A stretch of 64,000 nt of DNA from Caulobacter zeae (lineage in GTDB: Bacteria > Pseudomonadota > Alphaproteobacteria > Caulobacterales > Caulobacteraceae), in the NCBI RefSeq assembly GCF_002858925.1, contig NZ_PJRS01000044.1, positions 1 to 64,000 of the forward strand, given 5' to 3'. The notes under the pieces are model-generated. The model ran no database searches and was not told the origin of the DNA. It saw nothing but the letters and a program-made list of their open reading frames with translations. Shown here in pieces: positions 10,748 to 22,602 of this stretch. Each line of letters opens with the position of its first letter. Position 1 is the first letter of the stretch. A program made the position numbers and the translations under genes.

Positions 10748-12007
10748 ATGAACACCCCGGCAGCGGCGGGCCAGGAACACCGGCGCCTGACGCAACAAGA
10801 AGTCGACGTGATCTGCGCCAAGCACGACCGCCTGTGGTCGGCTAGGCTCGGCGGCGCGCGCGCGGTCTTCGCCTTCTGCGACCTTTCGGGCCTGGTGCTG
10901 CACGGCCGCAATCTGTGCGACGCCGACTTCACCGGCGCGCTGCTGGTCGGGACCGACCTGCGCCGCTGCAAGCTCGACAACGCCAACCTCTACGGCGCCG
11001 ACATGCAGGGCGCGGACCTTACTGATTCTTCGTTGCGCCGGGCCGACCTGCGCGGCTCCAGCCTGCGCGGCGCCAACCTGACCGGCGCCGACATGTTCGA
11101 GGCCGACCTGCGCGAGGGCCAGATCGCCGCCGCCGACCGCGAGAAGGGCTACCGCATCATCGAGCCGGTGCAGCGCGAGGCCTACGCCACGGGCGCCAAC
11201 CTCTCCGGCGCCAACCTCGAACGCTCGCGCCTGTCGGGCATCGTCGCCACCAAGGCCGACTTCAGCGACGCCATCCTCAAGGACGCCAAGCTGGTCCGCG
11301 CCAATCTCAAGCAGGCCAACTTCAACGGCGCCAACATGGCCGGGGCCGACCTGTCGGGCGCGAACCTCGCCGGGGCCGACCTGCGCAACACCGTGCTGGT
11401 CGGGGTCAAGACCATGTCCTGGAACGTCACCGGGGCCAGCATGGAGGGGGCCCTGACCGACAAGGCCTCGGGCGTCGACGTCTCCGACATGCCCTACGAG
11501 CAGATGATCGCCGACCACGCCCGCTGGTGCGAGACCGGCGGCGGCGAGGGCAAGCCGTCGGTGTTCGACAAGGCCGACCTGCGCAACCTGAAAAGCATCC
11601 GCGGCTTCAACCTGACGGCCCTGTCGGCCAAGGGCGCGGTGTTCTACGGCCTCGACATGGAGGGCGTGCAGATGCAGGGCGCCCAGCTCGAAGGCGCGGA
11701 CCTTCGGGCCTGCAACCTGCGCCGGGCCGACCTGCGCGGCGCGCGGCTCAAGGGCGCCAAGCTGTCGGGTTCCGACCTGCGCGACGCCCAGCTGGGGCCG
11801 CTGCTGATCGGCAAGGACCGGCTCTTGCCGGCCGACCTGACCGGCGTGCTGCTGACCAACGCCGACCTGGCCCGGGCCGACCTGCGCGGCGCATGCCTGG
11901 CGGGCGCGGATCTTTCGAGGGCGAACTTCACCAGCGCCAACCTCAAGGACGTCGACATCACCGGAACCATCCGGCTGGGCGCCCGAGGGCTCGAAGACCT
12001 CATCTGA
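10748..12007 (+). CDS. Pentapeptide-repeat protein, first paralogue
   Basis: A 419-residue protein built largely of A(D/N)LxG-type pentapeptides, which fold as a right-handed quadrilateral beta-helix. Repeats run from about residue 44 to 250 and again from about 285 to 415. A non-repeat linker carries HARWCETGGGEGKP, a motif also present in the next gene (QQWCQTGGKEGA). The N-terminal 40 residues are helical and contain no signal peptide, so the protein is cytoplasmic. The next gene encodes a paralogue of exactly the same length, indicating tandem duplication. Both genes converge on the ten-gene module operon at 13493-22497, with a family B doublet between them. The molecular role is unknown; a scaffold or decoy function is only a guess. 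Confidence 0.85.
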   Translation: MNTPAAAGQEHRRLTQQEVDVICAKHDRLWSARLGGARAVFAFCDLSGLVLHGRNLCDADFTGALLVGTDLRRCKLDNANLYGADMQGADLTDSSLRRADLRGSSLRGANLTGADMFEADLREGQIAAADREKGYRIIEPVQREAYATGANLSGANLERSRLSGIVATKADFSDAILKDAKLVRANLKQANFNGANMAGADLSGANLAGADLRNTVLVGVKTMSWNVTGASMEGALTDKASGVDVSDMPYEQMIADHARWCETGGGEGKPSVFDKADLRNLKSIRGFNLTALSAKGAVFYGLDMEGVQMQGAQLEGADLRACNLRRADLRGARLKGAKLSGSDLRDAQLGPLLIGKDRLLPADLTGVLLTNADLARADLRGACLAGADLSRANFTSANLKDVDITGTIRLGARGLEDLI

Positions 12008-12114
12008 GCTACCCAAATTGAGAAGTGTGCAGCGACCTTAACCGTTCGCTCGTCGATTCCTGTTATCCGATTGTCCGCCAGTGATTTTCCAGTAAGCCGG
12101 GAGGGGGTCCCGCA

Positions 12115-13374
12115 ATGAACGCCGCACAGAGCCTCGCGGGCCGCCGCAAGCTCAGTCAGGCCGAACTCGACATGATCGTCACGGCCCACGAGAAGTTCGT
12201 GACCGGCAAGCAGGGCGGCAAGCGCGCCTCGCTGCGGTTCATGAACCTGTCGGGGCTGGACCTGTCGTTCCGCAACCTGACCGACGCTGATCTGTCCGCC
12301 TCGATCCTCGACGGCTGTCGCATGGTGCGCTCCAAGCTGGATCGCGCCAGCCTGTTCGGCTGCGACCTGCGCAAGGCCGACCTGCGCCAGGCCAGTCTCC
12401 AGCGCGCCGACCTGCGCGGCGCCTGCCTGCGCGGGGCCAACCTCTCGCAGGCCGACCTGACCCAGGCCGACTTCCGCGAGGGCCAGATCGCCATTCCGCA
12501 TCCGCGCAAGGGCCTGGACACCGTCAAGCACGAGACCCGCAACGGCGAGGTCGACGAGGTCAACTTCTCGGGCGCCACCCTGGACGGCTCGCAGTTCACC
12601 GGCGTCTCGGCCTTCAAGGCCGACTTCTCCGACTGCTCCCTGCGCGGGGCCAAGCTGTCGGGCGCCAACCTCAAGGAAGCCAACCTGGTCGGGGCCATCC
12701 TCGACAACGCCGACGTCAAGGGGGCCAACCTCGAGGGGGCCAACCTGCAGGGCGCGGTGATGTCGGGCGTCGACACCTCGACCGCCCGCGTGCACGGCGC
12801 GCACATGACCGGCGCCCTGACCACCTCGACCCCCGAGGCGGTGAACAAGGCGCGCGAGCTCTACGCGCGGTGCCTGGCCAACCAGCAATGGTGCCAGACC
12901 GGCGGCAAGGAGGGCGCGGCCGCCCGCCTCGACGGCGAGGACCTGCGTCCCATCGGCGACCGCCTCAAGGGCCTGCGCCTGACGGCGATGAGCGCCAAGG
13001 GGGCCTGCTTCGTGGGCATGGACCTGTCCGGCGCCCAACTGCAGGGGGCCAACCTGCAGAACGCCGACCTGCGCGCGGCCAACCTGCGCGGCGCCGACCT
13101 GCGCGGGGCCAAGCTGACCGGCGCCAACCTGACCAAGGCCGACCTGCGCCAGGCCTTCCTGTCGCCGCTGCCGCTGGGCCCCGAGCGCAAGACCGTCGGC
13201 AACCTGGCCGCCGCCCGCCTGCGCTACGCCATGCTACAGACCGCCGATCTTTCCGAAGCCGTCCTCGACGGCGCCGACCTGCGCGGCGCCGACTTCACCG
13301 GCGCCCGCATCGCCAAGGCCAGCTTCCGCGACTGTGACGTAGGCCAGGCCCAGGGGCTGGAGTTCGGGGCTTAA
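12115..13374 (+). CDS. Pentapeptide-repeat protein, second paralogue
   Basis: A 419-residue paralogue of the preceding protein. It has the same layout: an N-terminal helix (RRKLSQAELDMIVTAHEKF), a first pentapeptide block, a central QQWCQTGGKEGAAARL linker near residue 260, and a second block ending at the C-terminus. No signal peptide or membrane segment is seen. GGGAGGGGG precedes the start. The 107-base gap after the first paralogue shows no terminator, so co-transcription is likely. The conserved linker between two repeat blocks distinguishes this pair from simple pentapeptide proteins and suggests a specific binding site there (inference). Confidence 0.85.
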   Translation: MNAAQSLAGRRKLSQAELDMIVTAHEKFVTGKQGGKRASLRFMNLSGLDLSFRNLTDADLSASILDGCRMVRSKLDRASLFGCDLRKADLRQASLQRADLRGACLRGANLSQADLTQADFREGQIAIPHPRKGLDTVKHETRNGEVDEVNFSGATLDGSQFTGVSAFKADFSDCSLRGAKLSGANLKEANLVGAILDNADVKGANLEGANLQGAVMSGVDTSTARVHGAHMTGALTTSTPEAVNKARELYARCLANQQWCQTGGKEGAAARLDGEDLRPIGDRLKGLRLTAMSAKGACFVGMDLSGAQLQGANLQNADLRAANLRGADLRGAKLTGANLTKADLRQAFLSPLPLGPERKTVGNLAAARLRYAMLQTADLSEAVLDGADLRGADFTGARIAKASFRDCDVGQAQGLEFGA

Positions 13375-13492: not shown

Positions 13493-14134
13493 CTATTTCA
13501 GCCCCAGCGTCACCGCGTTCGTCGTGCGCACCAGCGCCTTGGGCGCGGCGTCCTGCGAGGCGACGGTCTGGTCGGCGGCCTTGTCGGCGGGCACGGCCTC
13601 GCCCTTGGCGTCGACGAAAACGGCGGTGAAGCCGCGGGGCGAAAGCGCGGCCACGGCGGCGGTTCCGGTCAGGCCGCGCACGTCCGGCATCGGGGCGGCG
13701 TCGTCCAGCGCGGCGGGCGGCGGCACGGGCACGATCTTGAAGGTCAGCTTGGCTGCGCCGCTGGCCTGGAAGGCGTAGCGCTGCTGGAAGGCCGCGTCGA
13801 CCGGGGTGACATAGGTGCGGGCCTTGCCGATCGCGGCCGCTTGGCCCGACGTGCCGGCGCTGCCGTCGGCGCCGCCGGTGCCGCCGATGTGCATCGAGAC
13901 CTGCACCTCGCAGGTGGTCTCGGGCAGCACGTAGAAGGTGGGCTGGTAGCCGATCGAGCGCAGGGCCTCCAGGCCCTCGTCGCCCTCGCTCTCGTACATG
14001 GCCAGGGTGGCGGCCAGCGAGGCCTGGTCGAGGGCCGCCTGGGCCTCGGCCACGCCGCGCCCGACGGCGGCGATCACCTCGCCCAGCGGCGTGGCCAGGC
14101 TTTCGCTGAGCAGTTCTGAGGCGTCCTGCGACAT
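13493..14134 (-). CDS. Module protein with C-terminal PASTA-like domain (operon gene 10)
   Basis: A 213-residue protein, last gene of the operon. Residues about 14-46 match the shared N-terminal helix (PLGEVIAAVGRGVAEAQAAL). The central segment SIGYQPTFYVLPETTCEVQV corresponds to LGFTPTFYQFVDTVIEVK of its paralogues. The module closes with QQRYAFQASGAAKLTFKIVP and VPPP. A PASTA-like unit follows (about 148-213, MPDVRGLTGTAAVAAL). The long Gly/Ser-rich loop in the middle replaces the variable region of the paralogues. There is no signal peptide, which is odd for a PASTA domain since known ones bind peptidoglycan outside the cytoplasm. The gene begins three bases after its upstream neighbour. 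Confidence 0.7.
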   Translation of the reverse strand: MSQDASELLSESLATPLGEVIAAVGRGVAEAQAALDQASLAATLAMYESEGDEGLEALRSIGYQPTFYVLPETTCEVQVSMHIGGTGGADGSAGTSGQAAAIGKARTYVTPVDAAFQQRYAFQASGAAKLTFKIVPVPPPAALDDAAPMPDVRGLTGTAAVAALSPRGFTAVFVDAKGEAVPADKAADQTVASQDAAPKALVRTTNAVTLGLK

Positions 14135-14137
14135 CGG

Positions 14138-15430
14138 TCAGGCTCCCTGTTGGTCGGCGAAGATGACCATCACCTGCGCGCCGCGGGCGATGATGGTTCC
14201 GGCGCCCGGCGACTGGACCATGGCCTGGCCAGGGGCGACGGCGGGGTTCAGGCCGCGCGGACCGGTGCTGGCCTCCAGCACCAGGCCCACCGAGGTCAGC
14301 ACCCGGCGCACCGCGCTTTCGGTCAGTTGCAGCACGTCGGGCACGCGGGGGCCGTCGTCGCTGGTCGGCACCTTCTCGGGAATGAACTGGAACTTCAGGT
14401 CGCTCAGGGAGTCCTGCGGCAGGGCCTTCAGGGTTTCGGTGTCGGGAAACTCCATGCTGCCGGTGTCGCGCAGCACGCCCTTGGCGCTGATCTGGATCGT
14501 GCCCAGCGAGAAGCCCGTGGGTTTCAGGGTCTTCTGGGCGGTGTCGAGCTGGGTGGCCATGTCGGTGGCGAGGTCCGTGACGGCCACGGTCCGCAGCGTG
14601 GCGACGGCGGGATTGATCGTCGCGGTGGTCCCGGTCGTACCCGTGGTCGGTTGGGCCTTGATCTCGTCGATCTCCAGGTCCTTGGCGACCAGGGTGGCGC
14701 GCAGGCTGGAGATTTCCTTCGCCTGCTCGGCGGCCGTGCGGCTGCTTTCGACCAGTTGCGCGTCGCGGCTGGCCAGGTCCTGGTCGCGCTGGACCAGGCG
14801 GGCGTTGAGGCTCTTGGTCGTCTCGTCGGCGGCCTTGGCGGCGTCGGCCTTCTCGGCGCGGACGGCGGCGATCTGGGCGTCGCGCTCGGCCAACTGCTTT
14901 GTCTGCGCCGAGATCTGGGTGTCGCGCGCGGCCAGGTCCTGGTCGTTCTTGGCCAGGCGGGCGGTGAAGGTCCTGGTCGTGTCGTCCACGGCCTGGGCGC
15001 GGATGGCGGCGACGTCGACGCTGGGCGCGGCGACCGGGGCGTCGGTGGCCACCACCCCGCCGATCGGCGTCGCCGTGCGCAGGGTGCGGGCCGACAGGGT
15101 GCGGGCGATCGCCGTCTCGGCCGGCGCCAGGCGGCGGACCTGGCCGAAGTCTATGGTCAGGGCGCCGGTGCGGGCGTTGCGGGTGAACTCCGGCGCGGCC
15201 GAGATCACGCCCGCGCCCTCGACCAGCCGGAAGGCCGGGGCGAAGGGCAGGGTGTCGTCGGCGATGGCGCCGGCGCCCTTGGCCGTGCCGGTCGCGTCGG
15301 TCTTGGCGCTGGAGGCGCTGGCCCAGGCGCCGGTCTTGAGGTCGAACAGCTGGACGTCGAGCGCCGCGCCGACCGCCACATTGCCGTCGGCGTCGGTCAA
15401 TCGAGCGGTCCAGGAGAAGGCGGTGCTCAT
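14138..15430 (-). CDS. Coiled-coil protein with C-terminal PASTA domain (operon gene 9)
   Basis: A 430-residue protein in three parts. Residues about 1-100 form a beta-rich domain (FSWTARLTDADGNVAVGAAL) that resembles small carboxypeptidase-regulatory or Ig-like folds. Residues about 150-258 are a long coiled coil with an internal duplication (ARLAKNDQDLAARDTQ and ARLVQRDQDLASRDAQ, about 50 residues apart). Residues about 362-425 are a PASTA domain (VPDVLQLTESAVRRVL, GQAMVQSPGAGTIIARGAQV). No signal peptide or membrane helix is seen. Its start overlaps the stop of operon gene 8 by four bases, so translation is coupled. A rod with two end domains fits a spacer or linker role (inference). Confidence 0.72.
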   Translation of the reverse strand: MSTAFSWTARLTDADGNVAVGAALDVQLFDLKTGAWASASSAKTDATGTAKGAGAIADDTLPFAPAFRLVEGAGVISAAPEFTRNARTGALTIDFGQVRRLAPAETAIARTLSARTLRTATPIGGVVATDAPVAAPSVDVAAIRAQAVDDTTRTFTARLAKNDQDLAARDTQISAQTKQLAERDAQIAAVRAEKADAAKAADETTKSLNARLVQRDQDLASRDAQLVESSRTAAEQAKEISSLRATLVAKDLEIDEIKAQPTTGTTGTTATINPAVATLRTVAVTDLATDMATQLDTAQKTLKPTGFSLGTIQISAKGVLRDTGSMEFPDTETLKALPQDSLSDLKFQFIPEKVPTSDDGPRVPDVLQLTESAVRRVLTSVGLVLEASTGPRGLNPAVAPGQAMVQSPGAGTIIARGAQVMVIFADQQGA

Positions 15431-16080
15431 CCCACTTCCTCCATCCCGACCACGCCGCGGCCGCTATAGGCGCCGATCGAGGCGACGACCACGATCACGG
15501 CGCGGGGCGGTTCCTTGGCGATCGACAGGGTCGCCAGGGCGCGGCCGTCGGCGCCGGTGCGCAGCAGGGCCTGTTGCAGCCGTGTGCCGGGCTGGCGCAC
15601 GAAGCTGGCCACGCCGCGCGCCGCCGACAGGGTGGCGCTGGCCGCGTCGTCGATGTTCAGCTCCACCGGCTGGTCGGCCAGCACCTCGCCGGCGCTGTTG
15701 GTGACCACGACCGAGAGGTTGGCCACGCCGCCGATATTGCCGCCGCCCGAGACGGCGATGCGCGGCGTGGGCAGGCCCTCGCCCGGCGGGGTGGCCACCA
15801 GCCGCCCGCTGATCGTGCTTGAGACCTGCTGGTTGGTGCTGTTCTGGTCCTTGGCGGTGAACAGCAGGGCGATCGGCCGGCCGCCGCTGTCGGCCTTGGT
15901 CTGCATGTCGACCTTGATCGAGAAGTCGAGGAACGGCAGCTGGTAGCCGCCGATCGGCGCGCCGCTGGCGTCGACCTTGGGGCCGCTGTTCAGCGCCAGC
16001 TGCGCCTCGCGCACGCCTTCGGCGAGGGCCACCAGCAATTCCTCGATCGAATTGCCGACGAAGCGGCTTTCGGCCGGCAT
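15427..16080 (-). CDS. Module protein with Ig-like C-terminal domain (operon gene 8)
   Basis: A 217-residue protein. The N-terminus carries a shorter form of the shared helix (SIEELLVALAEGVREAQLAL). LPFLDFSIKVDMQTK replaces the LGFTPTFY strand, and ISGRLVATPPGE replaces the closing KLVPIPPP motif. Residues about 110-217 look like a bacterial Ig-like (Big/invasin-type) domain: PRIAVSGGGNIGGVANLSVV, then a C-terminal NSAGEVL and TGADGRALATLSI pattern. The start at 16080 overlaps the preceding stop in an ATGA. No export signal is present. Membership of the module family is inferred from aligned position and spacing rather than strong identity. Confidence 0.68.
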   Translation of the reverse strand: MPAESRFVGNSIEELLVALAEGVREAQLALNSGPKVDASGAPIGGYQLPFLDFSIKVDMQTKADSGGRPIALLFTAKDQNSTNQQVSSTISGRLVATPPGEGLPTPRIAVSGGGNIGGVANLSVVVTNSAGEVLADQPVELNIDDAASATLSAARGVASFVRQPGTRLQQALLRTGADGRALATLSIAKEPPRAVIVVVASIGAYSGRGVVGMEEVG

Positions 16081-17210
16081 CAGGCGTCTCCCTCGGACTC
16101 TTCGGAACGCTTGGCCTTCAGGCGCTCCAGGGCGCGGTCGCGGCGGGCGTCGTCGCGGGCCTCGTCGGCCTCTTTCAGCTCGCGCACGTCGCTGGCCATT
16201 TCGCGCAGGCGGTCGGCCTTCTCGGCGAAGTCGGCGGCCTCGCCTACATAGGATGACAGCTTGCGGGCCGTCTCGCGCACGTACGGATCGGCGCGGCCCA
16301 TGCCCGGGATCTTCTCGCGGGCCCGCTCGACCCAGTCGGCCGGGATGGCGTCGCGGGCGCTGTCGAGCGCGCGCTCGGCGGCGGCGTAGGCCTTGCGGCC
16401 CCGGCTGACCATGTCGCGGGCCTTGGCCAGGCGACGGTCCAGCGGATCGGTGGCGGTCGCCGCACGAGGACGCTCGGCCGGATCGCGCAGCGCCCGGCCG
16501 GCGTCGCGCAGGCCCCGACCGGCGTCGGCCAGGGACGACAGGCGGCGCGAGGGCTCGCTCAGCGGCTCGGCCTCGCGCCGGGCGGCCAGGCGTTCCCAAG
16601 GAGCTTCGCGCGACGTCGCGGCGGGGCGTTCCCAGGGCGTTTCGCGGGGCGAGGCCGCCGGGCGTTCCCACGGCCCCTCCCTGGGGGAGGCGGCTGGGCG
16701 CTCCCACGGCGCTTCACGCGGCGCGGCGGCGGGGCGCTCGAAGATTTCGGTCGGGCTGAAGCGGCGCAGATCGGGCGTCAGGCCGCCGGGCGTGGGGCGC
16801 ACCATCTCGCCCGGCGTGGCGCGCAGGCCTTCGCCGGGCGTGGCCCGCAGGGCGTCGGCGGCGGTGCCGCGCAGCGCCGGCGGCAGGGCGGTCGGATGCG
16901 GGTCCGGGCGCGGTCCGGCCTGGGCCCGGGCGACGTCGCGGCTCGCGCCCCAGCGCTCCAGTTCGGCGCGGCGCTGGTTCAGTGGCGTCACGGCGTAGCG
17001 CGGATCGCCGAGCGCGCCCTGACCCGTCAGCTGGGCCATCTTGCTCTCCAGCGCCTGGCGTTCGGCCAGCAGCCGCGCCAGGTTCGGCGACAGGGCGGCC
17101 GGATCGGCGCCCGGCGGCAGGCCGACGGCCGGGGAGGGGGCCGCGCGGGCCGGCGTCGGCGTCGGCGCCTTGGCGCGACGCAGCGCGTCCTTCCAGGGCG
17201 GATCGCTCAT
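16080..17210 (-). CDS. Proline-rich repeat protein (operon gene 7)
   Basis: A 376-residue, highly charged and probably largely disordered protein with no recognised domain. Residues about 158-205 hold four near-exact copies of a 12-residue unit, ERPAA(A/S/T)(P/S)RE(A/G/T)PW. Before that, about 121-144, there are three copies of an LRATPGEG-like unit. The C-terminal 130 residues are Arg/Glu/Ala-rich and helical. It lacks signal peptide and membrane segments. It overlaps both neighbours by four bases or one base (ATGA junctions). Repeats with regularly spaced Trp suggest a flexible tether with repeated docking sites (inference). Confidence 0.68.
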   Translation of the reverse strand: MSDPPWKDALRRAKAPTPTPARAAPSPAVGLPPGADPAALSPNLARLLAERQALESKMAQLTGQGALGDPRYAVTPLNQRRAELERWGASRDVARAQAGPRPDPHPTALPPALRGTAADALRATPGEGLRATPGEMVRPTPGGLTPDLRRFSPTEIFERPAAAPREAPWERPAASPREGPWERPAASPRETPWERPAATSREAPWERLAARREAEPLSEPSRRLSSLADAGRGLRDAGRALRDPAERPRAATATDPLDRRLAKARDMVSRGRKAYAAAERALDSARDAIPADWVERAREKIPGMGRADPYVRETARKLSSYVGEAADFAEKADRLREMASDVRELKEADEARDDARRDRALERLKAKRSEESEGDA

Positions 17211-17770
17211 CCGTTGTCGGGGTCCTTGGGCGGCGGCGCGCGTCGCTGTTCGATCAGCGCGCGGACCCTTTCCTCGAACAGGGCCGGCGGCGGTATGGGC
17301 ACCAGCTTGGTGCGCATCAGGCTCGAGCCCTCGGCGCTGTACTGGTACTTGGCCGCGTAGCTGGCGCTGACGCTGCTGGCGCTGACCGCCCCGCCGCCGC
17401 CGAACGGCGTCCAGAAGCCGCCGGCCTTGACCGTGGTGGCGCTGCTGCTGCGCTTGATCTCGGTCTCGGACTTGAACGAGATCGACATCTTCAGCTCGAT
17501 GACGGTGTCGACGAACTGATAGAAGGTCGGGGTGAAGCCCAGCTCCAGCAGGCTGTATTCCTGCCCGTCGCCGAACTTGACCATGTAGCTCTTGGACTTG
17601 GCCCCTTCGCCGTCCTTTTCCTCGTCGGCGTCCTCGTCATAGCCGGCCATCATCCGGGCGATGCGGAGCGACACGAGGTCGAGTTGAAGCTGGGCGGTGG
17701 CGATGCCCACCCCCAGGCGCTGCACCATCTCCGGGAAGGGGACGGCGAGCAGTTCTGTGCCCACGCTCAT
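17207..17770 (-). CDS. Module protein (operon gene 6)
   Basis: A 187-residue protein that is almost only the shared module. It has the N-terminal helix VPFPEMVQRLGVGIATAQLQ, the central LLELGFTPTFYQFVDTVIEL strand pair and a Ser/Gly-rich variable stretch. It ends with AKYQYSAEGSSLMRTKLVPI, PPPALFEERVRAL and a basic Pro-rich tail. It is clearly a close paralogue of operon gene 5, which differs mainly by a longer insertion after the first helix. No signal peptide. I know no function for this module; the DUF2589 group is one family worth comparing, but I cannot assign it from sequence reading alone. Confidence 0.72.
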   Translation of the reverse strand: MSVGTELLAVPFPEMVQRLGVGIATAQLQLDLVSLRIARMMAGYDEDADEEKDGEGAKSKSYMVKFGDGQEYSLLELGFTPTFYQFVDTVIELKMSISFKSETEIKRSSSATTVKAGGFWTPFGGGGAVSASSVSASYAAKYQYSAEGSSLMRTKLVPIPPPALFEERVRALIEQRRAPPPKDPDNG

Positions 17771-17791
17771 GGCGCGCCCTCCATCCTGGGA

Positions 17792-18553
17792 TTAGTCGTC
17801 CTTCTTCTCTTCCTTGCCCAGCTTGGCGTCGAGCAGGCGGCGACGACGCTCGACCTCCTCGTCCAGCTGGCGGCGGATGCGCTCTTCCAGGATGGCCGGC
17901 TGCGGTATGGGCACCAGCTTGGTGCGCAGCAGGCTCGAGCCCTCGGCCGAGTAGCTGTATTTCGACGAGTAGGTGGCGTCGACCTGGCTGGTCGAGACCT
18001 GGCTGGTGTTGCTGGTCCCGGCGCGGCCGCGGAACAGGCTCCAGCTGAAGCTCGAACCCTTGGTGGTCACCTGGTTGGTGTTGCGCGAGCTGTAGCCGGA
18101 CTCGCTGGTTCGGGTGATCTTGATGGCGATCTTCACCTCGATGATCGTGTCGACGAACTGGTAGAAGGTCGGCGAGAAGCCCAGCTCCAGCATCGACAGC
18201 CGCGTCGGCACGCGGATCAGGGTCTTGGGATCTTCCTTATTCTTGACCAGCTCGGCCTTCTGGGCCTCGACGACCTTGACCAGGGCCGCGGTGTCGCCGC
18301 CCGAGATCGCGTTGTCGGCCTCGATATAGGCCAGGGCGTCCGAGGGGGTCATCAGGTCGTAGCCGAAGAAGATCCGGCTGTCGTCGAAGGTGGTGTTGCC
18401 CTCGTCGTCGGTGACGGCCTGAAGGCCGCCCATCATCTCGGCGACCTCGATGCTGTTGGCGTCGAGCTTGATCTGGCCCTCGGCGATGGCGAAGGCCATC
18501 TGGCGGATCATGTCCCCCATGGGGACGTTCAGAAGTTCTCTGCCGATCGACAT
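17792..18553 (-). CDS. Module protein with extended insertion (operon gene 5)
   Basis: A 253-residue paralogue of operon gene 6. It has the same N-terminal helix (VPMGDMIRQMAFAIAEGQIK), the central LELGFSPTFYQFVDTIIEVK and the closing YSYSAEGSSLLRTKLVPIPQ followed by PAILEERIRRQLDEEVERRR. An acidic insertion of about 70 residues (around 45-120) lies between the helix and the central strands. The C-terminus is a charged helix ending KLGKEEKKDD. It contains no export signal. Gaps of 12 and 21 bases separate it from its neighbours, the largest within this operon. Confidence 0.72.
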   Translation of the reverse strand: MSIGRELLNVPMGDMIRQMAFAIAEGQIKLDANSIEVAEMMGGLQAVTDDEGNTTFDDSRIFFGYDLMTPSDALAYIEADNAISGGDTAALVKVVEAQKAELVKNKEDPKTLIRVPTRLSMLELGFSPTFYQFVDTIIEVKIAIKITRTSESGYSSRNTNQVTTKGSSFSWSLFRGRAGTSNTSQVSTSQVDATYSSKYSYSAEGSSLLRTKLVPIPQPAILEERIRRQLDEEVERRRRLLDAKLGKEEKKDD

Positions 18554-18565
18554 GTCTGGTCCTTC

Positions 18566-19054
18566 CTACGGTGGGGGGGCGGGCGTCGGCGCGGGGGCCG
18601 GCTCGCTGATCTTGCGAAGCAGGGTTTCGAGGTTCTCGGGCGGCGGCAGGCTGACCAGCCGGGCCGCGATCGAGCTCATGCCCTCGGCGCTGACCGAGAA
18701 CTTGCGCGCGTAGCTGACGTTGACCGAGGCGGCGACCATGACGAAGCCGGCCTGGACGCCGACCGTCGCGCCGGCCGACACGCCGAACTCGGTGCTCTCG
18801 GTCATGCTGAACGAGAGCTTGGCCTCCACCGTGGCCTCGGTGAAGCTGTAGAAGGTCGGCGTGAAGCCCAGCGAAATCAGGTTGTGGGTCTCGCCGCCCA
18901 ACTCGACCTCGGCCTCGGCCATGGCCTTGGCCGTCTCGATGCTGTTGCGGTCGAGCGCCGACTGGGCCTGGGCGATGGCGATGCCCAGGCGCTCGATGAT
19001 CTGCGGCAGCGGCGCGGACAGCAGCTGCCGGGTGACGGACGCGGTCTCGCTCAT
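18566..19054 (-). CDS. Minimal module protein (operon gene 4)
   Basis: A 162-residue protein that defines the minimal module. It begins with an N-terminal helix (APLPQIIERLGIAIAQAQSA, LDRNSIETAKAM). The segment SLGFTPTFYSFTEATVEAKL SFSMTE (written here in two parts) follows. Next is a Gly/Val/Ala-rich stretch FGVSAGATVGVQAGFVMVAA, then YARKFSVSAEGMSSIAARLV and SLPPPENLETLLRKI, and a tail of alternating Pro and Ala. The middle hydrophobic part is more likely amphipathic beta strand than a membrane helix. Its start overlaps the stop of gene 3 by four bases. No function is known. Confidence 0.7.
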   Translation of the reverse strand: MSETASVTRQLLSAPLPQIIERLGIAIAQAQSALDRNSIETAKAMAEAEVELGGETHNLISLGFTPTFYSFTEATVEAKLSFSMTESTEFGVSAGATVGVQAGFVMVAASVNVSYARKFSVSAEGMSSIAARLVSLPPPENLETLLRKISEPAPAPTPAPPP

Positions 19055-20841
19055 GGGGTGGGCGTCGGCGCGGCGTCTTTGGCTTGCGCCAGGAAGGTCT
19101 TGATCTCGTCGAGGAACTCGACCGGCGCGGGCACGGCGACGATGCGGGCCGAGATGCTGCTGTTGCCGTTGATCGACTGCTCGAACTGCCGGCTGGTGCG
19201 GTAGTCGACCGACAGGCCCACGGCGACCGAGACCTTGGGCTTGTCGCCGCTGGCGGTCGGGGCCGCGGCGATCTTGTCGAGGGCCTTGGTGACGCTGGCG
19301 CCGTCGGCGGCCGACAGGGCGATGTCGTTGGCCGACAGGGTGACCAGGTTGATGATCACCGCGTCCTTGGCGTCGGAGAAGCTGACCACGCCGCCCTTGC
19401 GCACGGCGCGCACGCCGTGGGCGGCGCTGCCGGCGTTGACGTCGCGCGCCAGGTTGAAGGCGTAGGCCTGGGGCGAGTTGGCGTCGAGCGTCGTTCCGCC
19501 GTCGCTGGCGGCCGTCCCGCTGATCGCCACCGAGGTCTCCGAGGCGCCGACCTTGACGGCCGTGCCGTCCACCGGAACCGCCGTGAAGTGGCGCACGATG
19601 ATGAAGCCGTTGCCGCCGCCGGAGCTGGTCTTGTCGGGCGTCGGGGTGGTTTGCAACTGCGTGCCGGCGGACTCGACCACGACCAGCAGGTCGTTGGAGT
19701 CGGCCAGCAGCACCTCGGCGCGGCGGAACTGCTGGTTGGCCACGTTGTCGACCGCGCCCTGGGCCTTCCAGCTGGCCTCGCCGCGGCTTTCGACCTTGCG
19801 GATCTGGCCGGGCGCGACGCCGTTGTCGCGCAGGAACTCGGCCACCTTGTTGGCGCGGTCCAGGCCCAGCTTCTGATTGTAGGGATCGGTGTCGACGCGG
19901 TCGGTGAAGCCGACGACGTCGACGGTGGCGCCGTTGGCCTTGAGGGCGCGGGCCACCAGGGTCAGTTCCTCGACGGCCGCCTGCTTGAGATCGGACTTGC
20001 CGCTGTCGAACAGCGCCAGGCCCAGGGTGCCGCCGCCGACCGGCAGGTCCGAGCCGACGGGGTCGCGCAGCAGCTTGGCCTTGAAGCCGCCCAGCGTGTT
20101 GATCTGGCTGGCCACGGCGCGGGCGTAGAGCAGGTTGTTGGCCTTGGCGTCGACCTTGGTGCTCTTGCCCGCGGCCAGCACGAACTCTTCGCTGGTGTTG
20201 TTGGTCGGGGTCTCGACGATGCGGATGACACCGAGGCTGGCCTCGGAGGCGGCGTAGAACGCCACGCTGGTGTCGGTCTTGATCGGGTTCTTGGCGGTGT
20301 CGGGCTCGAGCTTGAACGGCACCTTGGTGCGCTTGGCGCTGACATAGGCGCGCTCGAACTTGCCGGCGGGCGTGCCCAGTTTCTTGGCCAAGTCTTCGGC
20401 GGCGGCCTCGACGTCGGCGCCCGCGGCGTCGGTCTTGGTCCCGTCGACGGTGACGCTGGCCGGCAGGCTCTTGAGCGTGACCTGGGCCTCGCGGGCATTG
20501 GCGGGGGCCTGGGGGCCGCCCTGGCCGAAGCCGAAGTCCAGCTTGCCGCCGATGCCGAAGGCGCTGGCCTCGCCGACCTTCATGGTCAGCTGCATCGAGA
20601 CCGACAGGTCGGCGTGCTGGTAGTGATAGAACGGCGGCGACAGGCCCAGCTGAAGCAGGCTCTTGCCGCCGAGGCCGGGGCGCGGCTCGACGTATTCGCC
20701 GACCTGGGCCAGGCTGTTGAGGTCCAGCGCCTTCTGGGCGTCGGCGATCGACAGGCCCATGGCCTTGATGAACTCGGCGACGCTGGCGTCGGCCAGGATC
20801 TGGCCGGGCGTCATCTTCTCGATGGGGTTCTGGTCAGCCAT
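19051..20841 (-). CDS. Module protein with inserted OmpA-like domain (operon gene 3)
   Basis: A 596-residue protein, the largest of the operon. Residues about 20-100 carry the first half of the module (AMGLSIADAQKALDLNSLAQ, LQLGLSPPFYHYQHADLSVS). Residues about 535-585 carry the closing part (VGLSVDYRTSRQFEQSINGN, SSISARIVAVPAPVEFLDEI). Between them sits an OmpA C-terminal-like domain at about 272-382, with GFTDRVDTDPYNQKLGLDRA containing the Asp314 and Arg329 that in OmpA homologues bind diaminopimelate of peptidoglycan. Additional beta-rich segments flank it. The protein has no signal peptide, so either it stays inside or it is exported by a non-Sec route. Overlap of 8 bases with gene 2. 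Confidence 0.75.
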   Translation of the reverse strand: MADQNPIEKMTPGQILADASVAEFIKAMGLSIADAQKALDLNSLAQVGEYVEPRPGLGGKSLLQLGLSPPFYHYQHADLSVSMQLTMKVGEASAFGIGGKLDFGFGQGGPQAPANAREAQVTLKSLPASVTVDGTKTDAAGADVEAAAEDLAKKLGTPAGKFERAYVSAKRTKVPFKLEPDTAKNPIKTDTSVAFYAASEASLGVIRIVETPTNNTSEEFVLAAGKSTKVDAKANNLLYARAVASQINTLGGFKAKLLRDPVGSDLPVGGGTLGLALFDSGKSDLKQAAVEELTLVARALKANGATVDVVGFTDRVDTDPYNQKLGLDRANKVAEFLRDNGVAPGQIRKVESRGEASWKAQGAVDNVANQQFRRAEVLLADSNDLLVVVESAGTQLQTTPTPDKTSSGGGNGFIIVRHFTAVPVDGTAVKVGASETSVAISGTAASDGGTTLDANSPQAYAFNLARDVNAGSAAHGVRAVRKGGVVSFSDAKDAVIINLVTLSANDIALSAADGASVTKALDKIAAAPTASGDKPKVSVAVGLSVDYRTSRQFEQSINGNSSISARIVAVPAPVEFLDEIKTFLAQAKDAAPTPTP

Positions 20842-21418
20842 TCATCGGCTCCTTGATCCGCGGCGTCTGGGGGCTGGTTGGGGACTCGCAGGCGCGCGCC
20901 CTGTCGACGGTGTCGGGGCGGACGGTCCAATAGCCGTGGACCCGCTGGGCTTCGGACAGCCGGCCGGCGGGAACGCCAAGGCCGCGGGCGGTCCAGGCCA
21001 GGAGGCTGCGGGACAGGGGCAAAGCCTCGTCCAGGGCGACGGCGGCTGTCAGGCTTTCGCGGGCGGCGGTCACGTCGCCGGCCTTCAGCTCGTTGACGCC
21101 CTTGCGCTCCAGAAGGCAGGCGCGGTCGCGGCGCTGGAAGTCGCTGGGCGTTCCGTCGCCCAGTTCGGCGGCGGCGCTGCTGGCGGCCTCGCCGGCCAGG
21201 ACGGCGGCCTGCTCGTGGGCGCCGGTGCGCTCAAGGCTTTCCAGCACGCAGTGCAGGTAGTGGCGGGCGAAGATCTGCGGGGCGCGCACGCCGTGGGCCA
21301 GGCGCAGGGCCTCGCGGTACTTGGCCAGGGCCTGGTCGTGGCGGCCCTTCAGCGCCAGGACCTTGCCGGCCTCGGCGACGCCGGCGTGCAGGCGATGGAT
21401 GTCGAGGGGGGCGGTCAT
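20834..21418 (-). CDS. TPR-like helical protein (operon gene 2)
   Basis: A 194-residue, all-helical protein. Segments such as ALKGRHDQALAKYREALRLA and GDVTAARESLTAAVALDEAL have TPR spacing, suggesting two or three tetratricopeptide-like helix pairs used for protein binding. It has no signal peptide or membrane segment. The start at 21418 overlaps the stop of gene 1 in an ATGA, and its own end overlaps gene 3 by 8 bases. An assembly chaperone or adaptor role for the module proteins is inferred from position only. Confidence 0.65.
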   Translation of the reverse strand: MTAPLDIHRLHAGVAEAGKVLALKGRHDQALAKYREALRLAHGVRAPQIFARHYLHCVLESLERTGAHEQAAVLAGEAASSAAAELGDGTPSDFQRRDRACLLERKGVNELKAGDVTAARESLTAAVALDEALPLSRSLLAWTARGLGVPAGRLSEAQRVHGYWTVRPDTVDRARACESPTSPQTPRIKEPMNG

Positions 21419-22497
21419 GCGCGGATCTCGGAAAACAGCACCTCGGCCCCGGCGGCTTCCAGCCGGTGGCGCAGCAGGCGCGCGCGGGGCAGGGGCATCA
21501 GGCCGGTGGCGAGCGGGGCGACGCCGGACAGGCCGACCTCGGCCAGGACCGCGGCGGGGGCCGACAGGATGTCGAGCGCCTGGTGCGAGAAGGTCTCCAG
21601 TTCGGCGCGCACCGTCAGCCCGGCTTCGGCGTAGGCGGCCAGGCGGCCCTCCAGGTCGGCGAAGGCGACGCCGGCCTCGATGGGCACGGGCAGGGCCTGG
21701 CTCAGCAGGTCGAAGTCCTCGGCCGGAACGCCGGCCAGGGCCTCCAGCGCGGCGGCGGCCTGCGGCGGCGCGGCGACGAGGTCCAGGGTGAAGCGCAGGA
21801 AGGCCTGGTCGACGATGCGCACCTGCTCGGGCGCCTTCAGTCGCCGCCACAGGGCGTCGGCCTCGCCGCGGCTGAGGTCGAATACGGTGGCCGAGCCGCC
21901 GGCGCTGACGTCGGCGCCCGCCGGCAGCCTCTGGCGCAGGACGCTGGCCTGAAGGTGCGACAGGTCGCTGGCGAACAGGGCGAAGCGGGCCTCGTCCGGC
22001 CGGCTGGCGGTCAGGCGCACGGCGCCGCTTGGCAGGGCGGCTTCCAGTGCGCGCACCGTCGGCTCGGTGACGGCTCCCAGGATCACCCCCGGCGGGGTCA
22101 GCAGCAGGTCGAGGGCGGCGGCGGGCTCCATGCCCAGGAAGCGACCGAGGATCGCGGCGACGGCGTCGGCGGCGTCGAGGTCGAGCAGCTCGGCGGCCAG
22201 GTCCATGGTCGGGGCGCGGACCAGGGCGGCGCCGGCGGGGGCCACCGAGGCCTCGACGCCGAGCGTGCCGATCAGGGCGGCCAGGCGCGTCGCGTCGGCC
22301 GCCGGCAGGTTGGCCAGCAGCCGGGCAGGGGCGCGATAGAGGGCGTCGACCACCGTCTCGACCGGCAGTTCCAGGGCCTGGCTGAGCACCGAGGCCGCGC
22401 GGGGAGAAGCATTCCCGATGCTGATGATCAGCAGGTCGGCGGCCTCAGGTTCGACGCTTGGATACGCTACGCTGGGGGACACCGACGACTCGAGCAC
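21415..22497 (-). CDS. First operon protein, with ribosomal L7/L12-C-like repeats
   Basis: A 360-residue acidic, Ala/Leu-rich protein. It appears to contain several degenerate copies of a roughly 50-75 residue alpha/beta unit. In each, a helix ending in LL precedes a 'xxAPAxLLxxL' turn, and a second helix leads to a short strand such as LGVEASVAP or AAGAEVLFSEI. The pattern is reminiscent of the C-terminal domain of ribosomal protein L7/L12. Clear copies lie at about residues 40-88, 115-160 and 300-358. The start is GTG 22497, because GGGAGG lies seven bases upstream; GTG 22503 and TTG 22500 are in frame. It opens the operon and overlaps gene 2. Function unknown. Confidence 0.65.
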   Translation of the reverse strand: MLESSVSPSVAYPSVEPEAADLLIISIGNASPRAASVLSQALELPVETVVDALYRAPARLLANLPAADATRLAALIGTLGVEASVAPAGAALVRAPTMDLAAELLDLDAADAVAAILGRFLGMEPAAALDLLLTPPGVILGAVTEPTVRALEAALPSGAVRLTASRPDEARFALFASDLSHLQASVLRQRLPAGADVSAGGSATVFDLSRGEADALWRRLKAPEQVRIVDQAFLRFTLDLVAAPPQAAAALEALAGVPAEDFDLLSQALPVPIEAGVAFADLEGRLAAYAEAGLTVRAELETFSHQALDILSAPAAVLAEVGLSGVAPLATGLMPLPRARLLRHRLEAAGAEVLFSEIRA

Positions 22498-22602
22498 CAA
22501 CACCTCCCAAAAGGCTGGTTTCGACCGGGCTTATCCACGCTCTAGTTGGCGCGGCTGGAGACTCGTGTCAGAGTTGTATCTCTTTGTAAAGTTCGGAAAT
22601 AT

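Follow-up and report, generated by a model that had tools for sequence, protein, structure and literature searches.

A window of 64,000 nucleotides of contig NZ_PJRS01000044.1 (assembly GCF_002858925.1, Caulobacter zeae) carries on its minus strand, from 13493 to 22497, an operon of ten genes lying head to tail, six of which share one protein module. Coordinates without a locus number are positions in this window; numbers with L designate individual loci of the comparison. A preliminary description had listed ten tightly packed genes here, and all ten open reading frames (ORFs) were confirmed:

g1, 21415..22497, minus strand: tandem repeats resembling the C-terminal domain of ribosomal protein bL12 (ORF, family profile)
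g2, 20834..21418, minus strand: TPR-like protein (TPR_11 at E 9.7e-6, under the Pfam cut-off)
g3, 19051..20841, minus strand: hairpin module with a tip insert of about 400 amino acids that includes an OmpA-like domain (OmpA above the Pfam cut-off; AlphaFold2, alignment)
g4, 18566..19054, minus strand: stand-alone module, predicted helix plus long beta-hairpin (genome search, AlphaFold2, profiles)
g5, 17792..18553, minus strand: module in which an acidic insert separates the helix from the first strand; of all positions the nearest to DUF2589 (profiles)
g6, 17207..17770, minus strand: stand-alone module (genome search, profiles)
g7, 16080..17210, minus strand: low-complexity protein rich in W, P and R, with an ERQALE...LTG segment near the N-terminus (clusters)
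g8, 15427..16080, minus strand: divergent module and C-terminal Ig-like domain (Big_1 under the Pfam cut-off; profiles)
g9, 14138..15430, minus strand: beta-domain, coiled coil and C-terminal PASTA domain (PASTA above the Pfam cut-off)
g10, 13493..14134, minus strand: module and C-terminal PASTA domain (PASTA above the Pfam cut-off; profiles)

The nine junctions comprise four ATGA overlaps of 4 bases, one overlap of 8 bases, one of 1 base, and gaps of 3, 12 and 21 bases; the earlier statement that most junctions are of the ATGA type thus applies to four of the nine, and a majority (six of nine) is reached only when every overlap is counted. The longest ORF of g1 begins at 22503, and the GTG at 22497 is the preferred start because it is preceded by GGGAGG at 22508-22503. 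Against the Protein Data Bank (PDB), the g1 family profile matched the bL12 C-terminal domain in 1ctf (E 3.1e-6, profile positions 8-78), and a further repeat matched 3j9y (E 8.5e-6, positions 231-296). Unlike bL12, g1 has several tandem copies of the domain and no ribosomal context. The g2 cluster has members in 73 of 82 sequences. The position of g7 is conserved, its family is divided into several clusters, and it gave no above-cut-off match in Pfam, NCBIfam or PHROGs.

The module of g3, g4, g5, g6, g8 and g10 stands alone or is joined to OmpA, PASTA or Ig-like domains. A search of the genome (5.39 Mb) with its own g4 protein recovered g6, g10, g3 (N- and C-terminal parts separately) and g5 at E 3.7e-18 to 1.3e-4; g8 was not among the matches. 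Family profiles of up to 71 members were also compared with each other, so that their E-values refer to single pairwise comparisons rather than database searches (L040, L110, L111, L114 and L120 were left out of the family sets, and sequences with X and the g3 of L061 were dropped from the comparison). The profiles g3short, g3N, g3C, g4, g5, g6 and g10 are interlinked at E 7.5e-9 to 6.9e-68, except that g3C and g10 are more weakly linked (1.8e-5) and that g3N and g3C represent different parts. The g8 profile scored 95.6% against g10 (1.1e-8), 95.3% against g3short (2.4e-8), 92.4% against g3N and 80.9% against g4 (1.2e-5), with lower values for g3C (56%), g6 (54%) and g5 (27%), and the control profiles g1, g2 and g7 gave at most 1.5% against the module. 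By these comparisons, the module is less strongly indicated in g8 than in the other five genes, yet well over the controls. Its three segments, the order of which had been named beforehand as a point of possible refutation, are colinear in g4 and g8. The proposal of one module in six genes was borne out, as were its contexts: OmpA in g3, PASTA in g10, Ig-like (under the cut-off) in g8, an acidic insert in g5, and the module alone in g4 and g6. Inspection by eye had suggested that g9 holds a seventh module, which the profiles did not establish (best g3short, 39.5%, E 3e-4; others 0.4-14%); g9 may possibly contain a degenerate copy. For the stand-alone module proteins, Pfam gave no above-cut-off match, and NCBIfam and PHROGs gave none at E 0.1.

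The preliminary description had also suggested a comparison with DUF2589. The family model itself (PF11655) matched none of the ten proteins and nothing in the genome at E 10. A DUF2589 profile made from seven sequences of one subfamily from other genomes (L130 left out; E-values again pairwise) aligned colinearly with g5 over its full length (95.9%, E 6.1e-9, 189 columns) and scored 74.5% against g6, 44.9% against g4, 15.2% against g10, 9.2% against g3short and 2.5% against g8, compared with 0.1-0.3% for the controls g1, g2 and g7. An earlier profile of five sequences had reached 17%, over the helix only; the other DUF2589 subfamily alone gave at most 25% (g8), and the two subfamilies pooled gave 69% (g6) and 61% (g5). 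Judged by these profiles, module and DUF2589 are remotely related, most clearly in g5 and with lower values at the other positions. Like the operon module, DUF2589 has a helix followed by a hairpin and is found with endolysin-type genes close by; unlike the operon, it mostly occurs as a gene pair, and the function of the family is unassigned. Four of the eight DUF2589 loci have a GH19, phage lysozyme, Amidase_3 or pesticin-type lysozyme gene no more than about 1 kb away. The lysozyme- or amidase-type gene near DUF2589 in L142 is on the opposite strand, and one M15-like guess near DUF2589 had no Pfam match. L137:140-5041, which adjoins a DUF2589 pair and a GH19 gene, encodes a protein of 1633 amino acids that has an extracellular contractile injection system (eCIS) core domain and matches Fic weakly. 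In three genomes, a small conserved protein (84-88 amino acids) lies beside or between DUF2589 pairs (L138:5997-6263, L139:6458-6712, L137:7317-7583), and its L138 and L139 copies had no Pfam match.

The history of the module was examined in a tree that took 122 modules out of 25 loci and covered positions g3, g4, g5, g6 and g10 (g8 left out). The five position labels require four changes on this tree, the minimum possible. The g5 and g10 modules form single groups with full support and g3 a single group at 84/98 (83% of bootstrap trees), while g4 and g6 are grades inside which the others arise, the g6 of some deep loci being nearer g5. Because the labels never mix, the subunits look position-locked, and the label pattern also suggests that the module was duplicated before it spread over the phyla. 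As far as can be read from sequence, the idea of a multi-subunit assembly whose members share a module and differ in the domains displayed is supported, and the idea of interchangeable subunits is not; the exchangeable part is the inserted or appended displayed domain. An operon tree of 55 loci (midpoint root, nine near-duplicates left out) divides into nine deep loci and a larger group, made up of Bacteroidota and Pseudomonadota. In eight deep loci g3 lacks OmpA, six having a short module and L115 and L116 another insert, which had no Pfam match. The Myxococcus locus L080 falls in the deep group via a long branch and has OmpA.

Relatives of the operon were collected by a genome scan with a single conserved-peptide pattern, which gave 121 encoding stretches, the best 80 of which were used. 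Represented among them are Alpha-, Beta- and Gammaproteobacteria, Bacteroidota, Myxococcota, Verrucomicrobiota, Balneolota, Gemmatimonadota, Acidobacteriota, Anaerolineales and candidate groups. A large share belongs to metagenome-assembled genomes, in which binning errors are possible. The closest named loci are from Caulobacter. Among 397 evenly sampled genomes of the phylum, matches were limited to the window's own genome and one weak stop-containing match, at the site of which no module ORF was seen. The operon occurs in 7 of 61 relatives and, the window's own genome counted, in 9 of 75 genomes of the genus. Its distribution is sparse on even sampling and patchy in the genus. A neighbourhood survey for conserved co-occurrence, as had been proposed, showed the g1-to-g10 order to be kept across phyla: in 47 of 65 complete loci when g7 and g9 are allowed to be unclassified ORFs (strict order), and in 61 of 65 when genes missed by the simple ORF caller are forgiven as well (tolerant order), near relatives being scored separately. 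Only L042, L110, L111 and L120 lie outside even the tolerant order. This strict order across phyla argues for the operon as an obligate unit, and ten genes kept in order over so many phyla would imply strong selection as one machine. No flanking cluster is present in more than 9 of 82 sequences, and the largest is of the response-regulator type. LamG proteins occupy the g9 slot in L110, L114 and L120; the one in L114 (2807-7447) has 1546 amino acids, six LamG stretches and a C-terminal PASTA domain. On a Sphaerotilus plasmid, L040:14643-17422 carries a reduced set, consisting of two modules, a divergent module-like protein (recognized by eye) and a coiled-coil protein. Spread by plasmid was not adopted as an explanation, as this was the single plasmid record and held the reduced set only.

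Structure models of g4 and g3 share one frame for the module. The AlphaFold2 model of g4 (single chain, 49 sequences; mean predicted local distance difference test score (pLDDT) 76.9, predicted template modelling score 0.59) has a helix at 16-47 and long strands at 68-101 and 104-136, with a low-confidence tip. The g3 model (single chain, 26 sequences, mean pLDDT 76.1) repeats this frame in the order helix, strand, insert, strand. Its well-folded insert (117-519), with OmpA between two mixed domains, occupies the tip of the hairpin. Polar and apolar residues alternate along the first strand at p 0.018-0.051 in the five families tested. A Foldseek search of the PDB with the g4 model returned, as weak near-hits, hairpins of ring proteins (pore stems, the phage P68 tail, FliF). 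Among viral models, the unnamed protein A0A516MP19 matched over the whole length (E 1.8e-5, template modelling (TM) score 0.51), and podovirus lower collar proteins appeared at E 0.1-0.2. At most, these near-hits hint at ring-forming hairpins.

A link with peptidoglycan comes from g3 and from neighbouring genes. The OmpA domain of g3 is Pal-like (1oap, E 4.5e-7), with both the fold and the Pfam match of PF00691, and its D314 is conserved in 64 of 68 sequences, N322 in 68 of 68 and R329 in 68 of 68. D314 and R329 correspond to the Asp and Arg with which OmpA domains bind diaminopimelate. While the fold and the binding-residue positions are those of the OmpA/Pal domain, in g3 the domain is modelled in a hairpin tip, in a protein without an evident signal peptide. 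For neighbouring genes, up to two per side were considered with a simple caller, and 107 of 128 upstream neighbours (61 loci) and 112 of 124 downstream neighbours (59 loci) were scored, from 70 loci in total. As only the 25 commonest families were tabulated, single cases may be missed. A peptidoglycan enzyme or binder adjoins the operon in 16 of the 70 loci, 14 of them with an above-cut-off catalytic domain from one of five families. Amidase_2 is the commonest family among the 112 downstream neighbours (8 members, 7 loci), and PG_binding_1 among the 107 upstream ones (5 members), where Peptidase_M15_4 has 2. The neighbours identified with Pfam are:

Amidase_2: L064, L070, L077, L079, L081, L112, L113, L090
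CHAP: L055, L107
M15_4: L058 (290 bases from g1), L109 (414 bases from g1)
GH108 lysozyme with a gene transfer agent (GTA)-type holin: L116
M74: L118
PG_binding_1, with CHAP under the cut-off: L078, opposite strand
PG_binding_1: L105, nearest gene under the cut-off, next gene above it

Thirteen of the 16 neighbours were examined, and none of these begins with a strongly hydrophobic stretch (the 10-residue mean does not exceed 1.79). The downstream association requires at least three changes on the operon tree, on which the neighbour state was scored for the downstream set plus L105. In the related loci L077 (15414-16451), L079 and L081, Amidase_2 is fused to CobU, an odd pairing of wall and cobalamin enzymes. 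Directly after g10, L054:15551-16147 encodes a protein of 198 amino acids with a bacterial SH3 domain, which was excluded from the wall-enzyme count. Export was judged by crude hydropathy windows with thresholds of 1.6 for membrane and 2.0 for N-terminal stretches, and few signal-like or membrane stretches were found in the operon proteins. By the same measure, 20 of 68 g3 proteins have an N-terminal hydrophobic stretch, in every case inside the module helix.

The interpretation that we favor tentatively, at a little less than even confidence, is that the operon makes a hetero-oligomeric, peptidoglycan-directed assembly, a ring or tube of hairpins produced in the cytoplasm that engages the wall together with endolysin-type enzymes. 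First, each of the six position-specific subunits (g3, g4, g5, g6, g8 and g10) would supply a helix and a single long, amphipathic beta-hairpin, and a ring or tube would probably arise from these hairpins lying side by side. Second, OmpA at the hairpin tip of g3 and PASTA in g9 and g10 would hold the assembly to peptidoglycan. Third, the proteins would be synthesized in the cytoplasm and lack signal peptides, and the wall would be opened by endolysin-type enzymes, whose genes adjoin the operon in some lineages and in others presumably lie elsewhere, so that the assembly could cross the envelope or be released. The g1, g2 and g7 products would probably be assembly or adaptor proteins. The conserved operon, its common module, the unmixed positions, the OmpA residues and, in some loci, the neighbouring enzymes are observed; ring or tube, export route and purpose are the elements that we infer.

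Several findings weigh against this interpretation. In the models, the hairpin tips have pLDDT below 50 (g4 90-102 and 104-117; g3 81-114 and 525-564), Foldseek matched g4 to nothing in the PDB at E 0.001 or better, and many kinds of ring protein have a comparable long hairpin. Alternation in the second strand reached p <0.05 in only two of the five families, g4 and g10, and g4 did so only when the longer stretch was taken (the shorter gave 0.099). For 54 of 70 loci, among them Caulobacter, a peptidoglycan gene was not found adjoining the operon, although tables confined to the 25 commonest families may miss single cases, and the DUF2589 neighbours for the Pfam test were chosen by eye. With regard to export, the window's g8 (1.62) exceeds the membrane threshold and its g1 reaches the N-terminal one, and family members above the membrane threshold number 11 of 60 for g1, 9 of 68 for g3 and 9 of 71 for g8.

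The most serious alternative, a possible although unlikely one, is an extracellular particle released by lysis: assembled in the cytoplasm like a tailocin without tail genes, it would be freed by endolysin and holin and bind the walls of other cells via OmpA, PASTA, LamG and Ig-like domains. The few signal-like starts, the endolysin-type genes adjoining in several lineages, the one holin and the LamG proteins at the g9 slot would all suit such a particle. Contractile injection systems and tailocins have in common with the operon a conserved cluster and, possibly, release by lysis. However, the holin was seen in a single locus and most loci have no adjacent peptidoglycan gene. Furthermore, the sheath, tube, baseplate and AAA+ ATPase of those systems have no match among the ten proteins in Pfam, NCBIfam or PHROGs, and tail and capsid proteins are likewise unmatched there.

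Improbable, in our judgment, is a holin-like or type 10 secretion-like device, in which a hairpin pore would let the neighbouring endolysin or other cargo through to the cell's own wall. The operon has in common with phage holin-endolysin cassettes and type 10 secretion the endolysin-type enzymes, a holin (in one locus) and a large complex of probably cytoplasmic origin, and the endolysin-type neighbours of operon and DUF2589 alike, the modelled amphipathic hairpin and the weak Foldseek near-hits to ring pores and collars are in keeping with a pore. The operon, with ten structural genes, is nevertheless much more complex than a holin, an enzyme is linked to it in a minority of loci, neither holin nor endolysin was seen beside the window operon, and in the models OmpA and PASTA are at opposite ends, with OmpA on the tip of the hairpin. 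Less probable again is a static envelope scaffold or stress structure that would strengthen or sense peptidoglycan with no release step; the conserved OmpA residues, the PASTA domains and the patchy distribution in the genus would agree with it, but the scarcity of signal-like starts and the lytic enzymes linked in some lineages speak against it. A domesticated phage tail or collar structure is very improbable, since, in spite of the viral-model matches of g4 and a Mor-type activator adjoining DUF2589 in L142 (under the cut-off in L141), tblastn searches of phage records with g4, g6 and g8, a one-pattern scan of viral contigs and PHROGs gave nothing for the module, so that the suggested check against phage and tail-like families produced no sequence match to it and the PHROGs match was limited to the OmpA part of g3.

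Rather doubtfully, the operon could represent a new class of machine for crossing the envelope. In it, six or more different hairpin subunits would close into an obligate ring with a single beta-barrel, with wall-binding domains at tip and rim and endolysin-assisted opening or crossing of peptidoglycan, and the two-gene DUF2589 systems would be its simple form. Such a ring would be a hetero-oligomeric barrel derived from one ancestral hairpin. For DUF2589, the operon suggests a testable role in wall breaching or the release of large complexes. Pfam lacks a model for the main protein family of the operon, and searches of the openly licensed literature brought up no paper about it. Searches there on DUF2589, on PASTA/OmpA/holin/operon combinations, on conserved unknown clusters and on lysis cassettes met no matching system, an absence that is weak evidence; this agrees with the earlier statement that no described system with this content was known. 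The OmpA/PASTA systems of PMC7159879 were considered as a possible identity and set aside; they are vWA-MoxR systems, distinct from the ten-gene operon.

Downstream of the operon and convergent with it, two genes at 10748-13374 of the window encode pentapeptide-repeat proteins of 419 amino acids each. They were rejected as operon partners, their cluster recurring in Caulobacter loci only.

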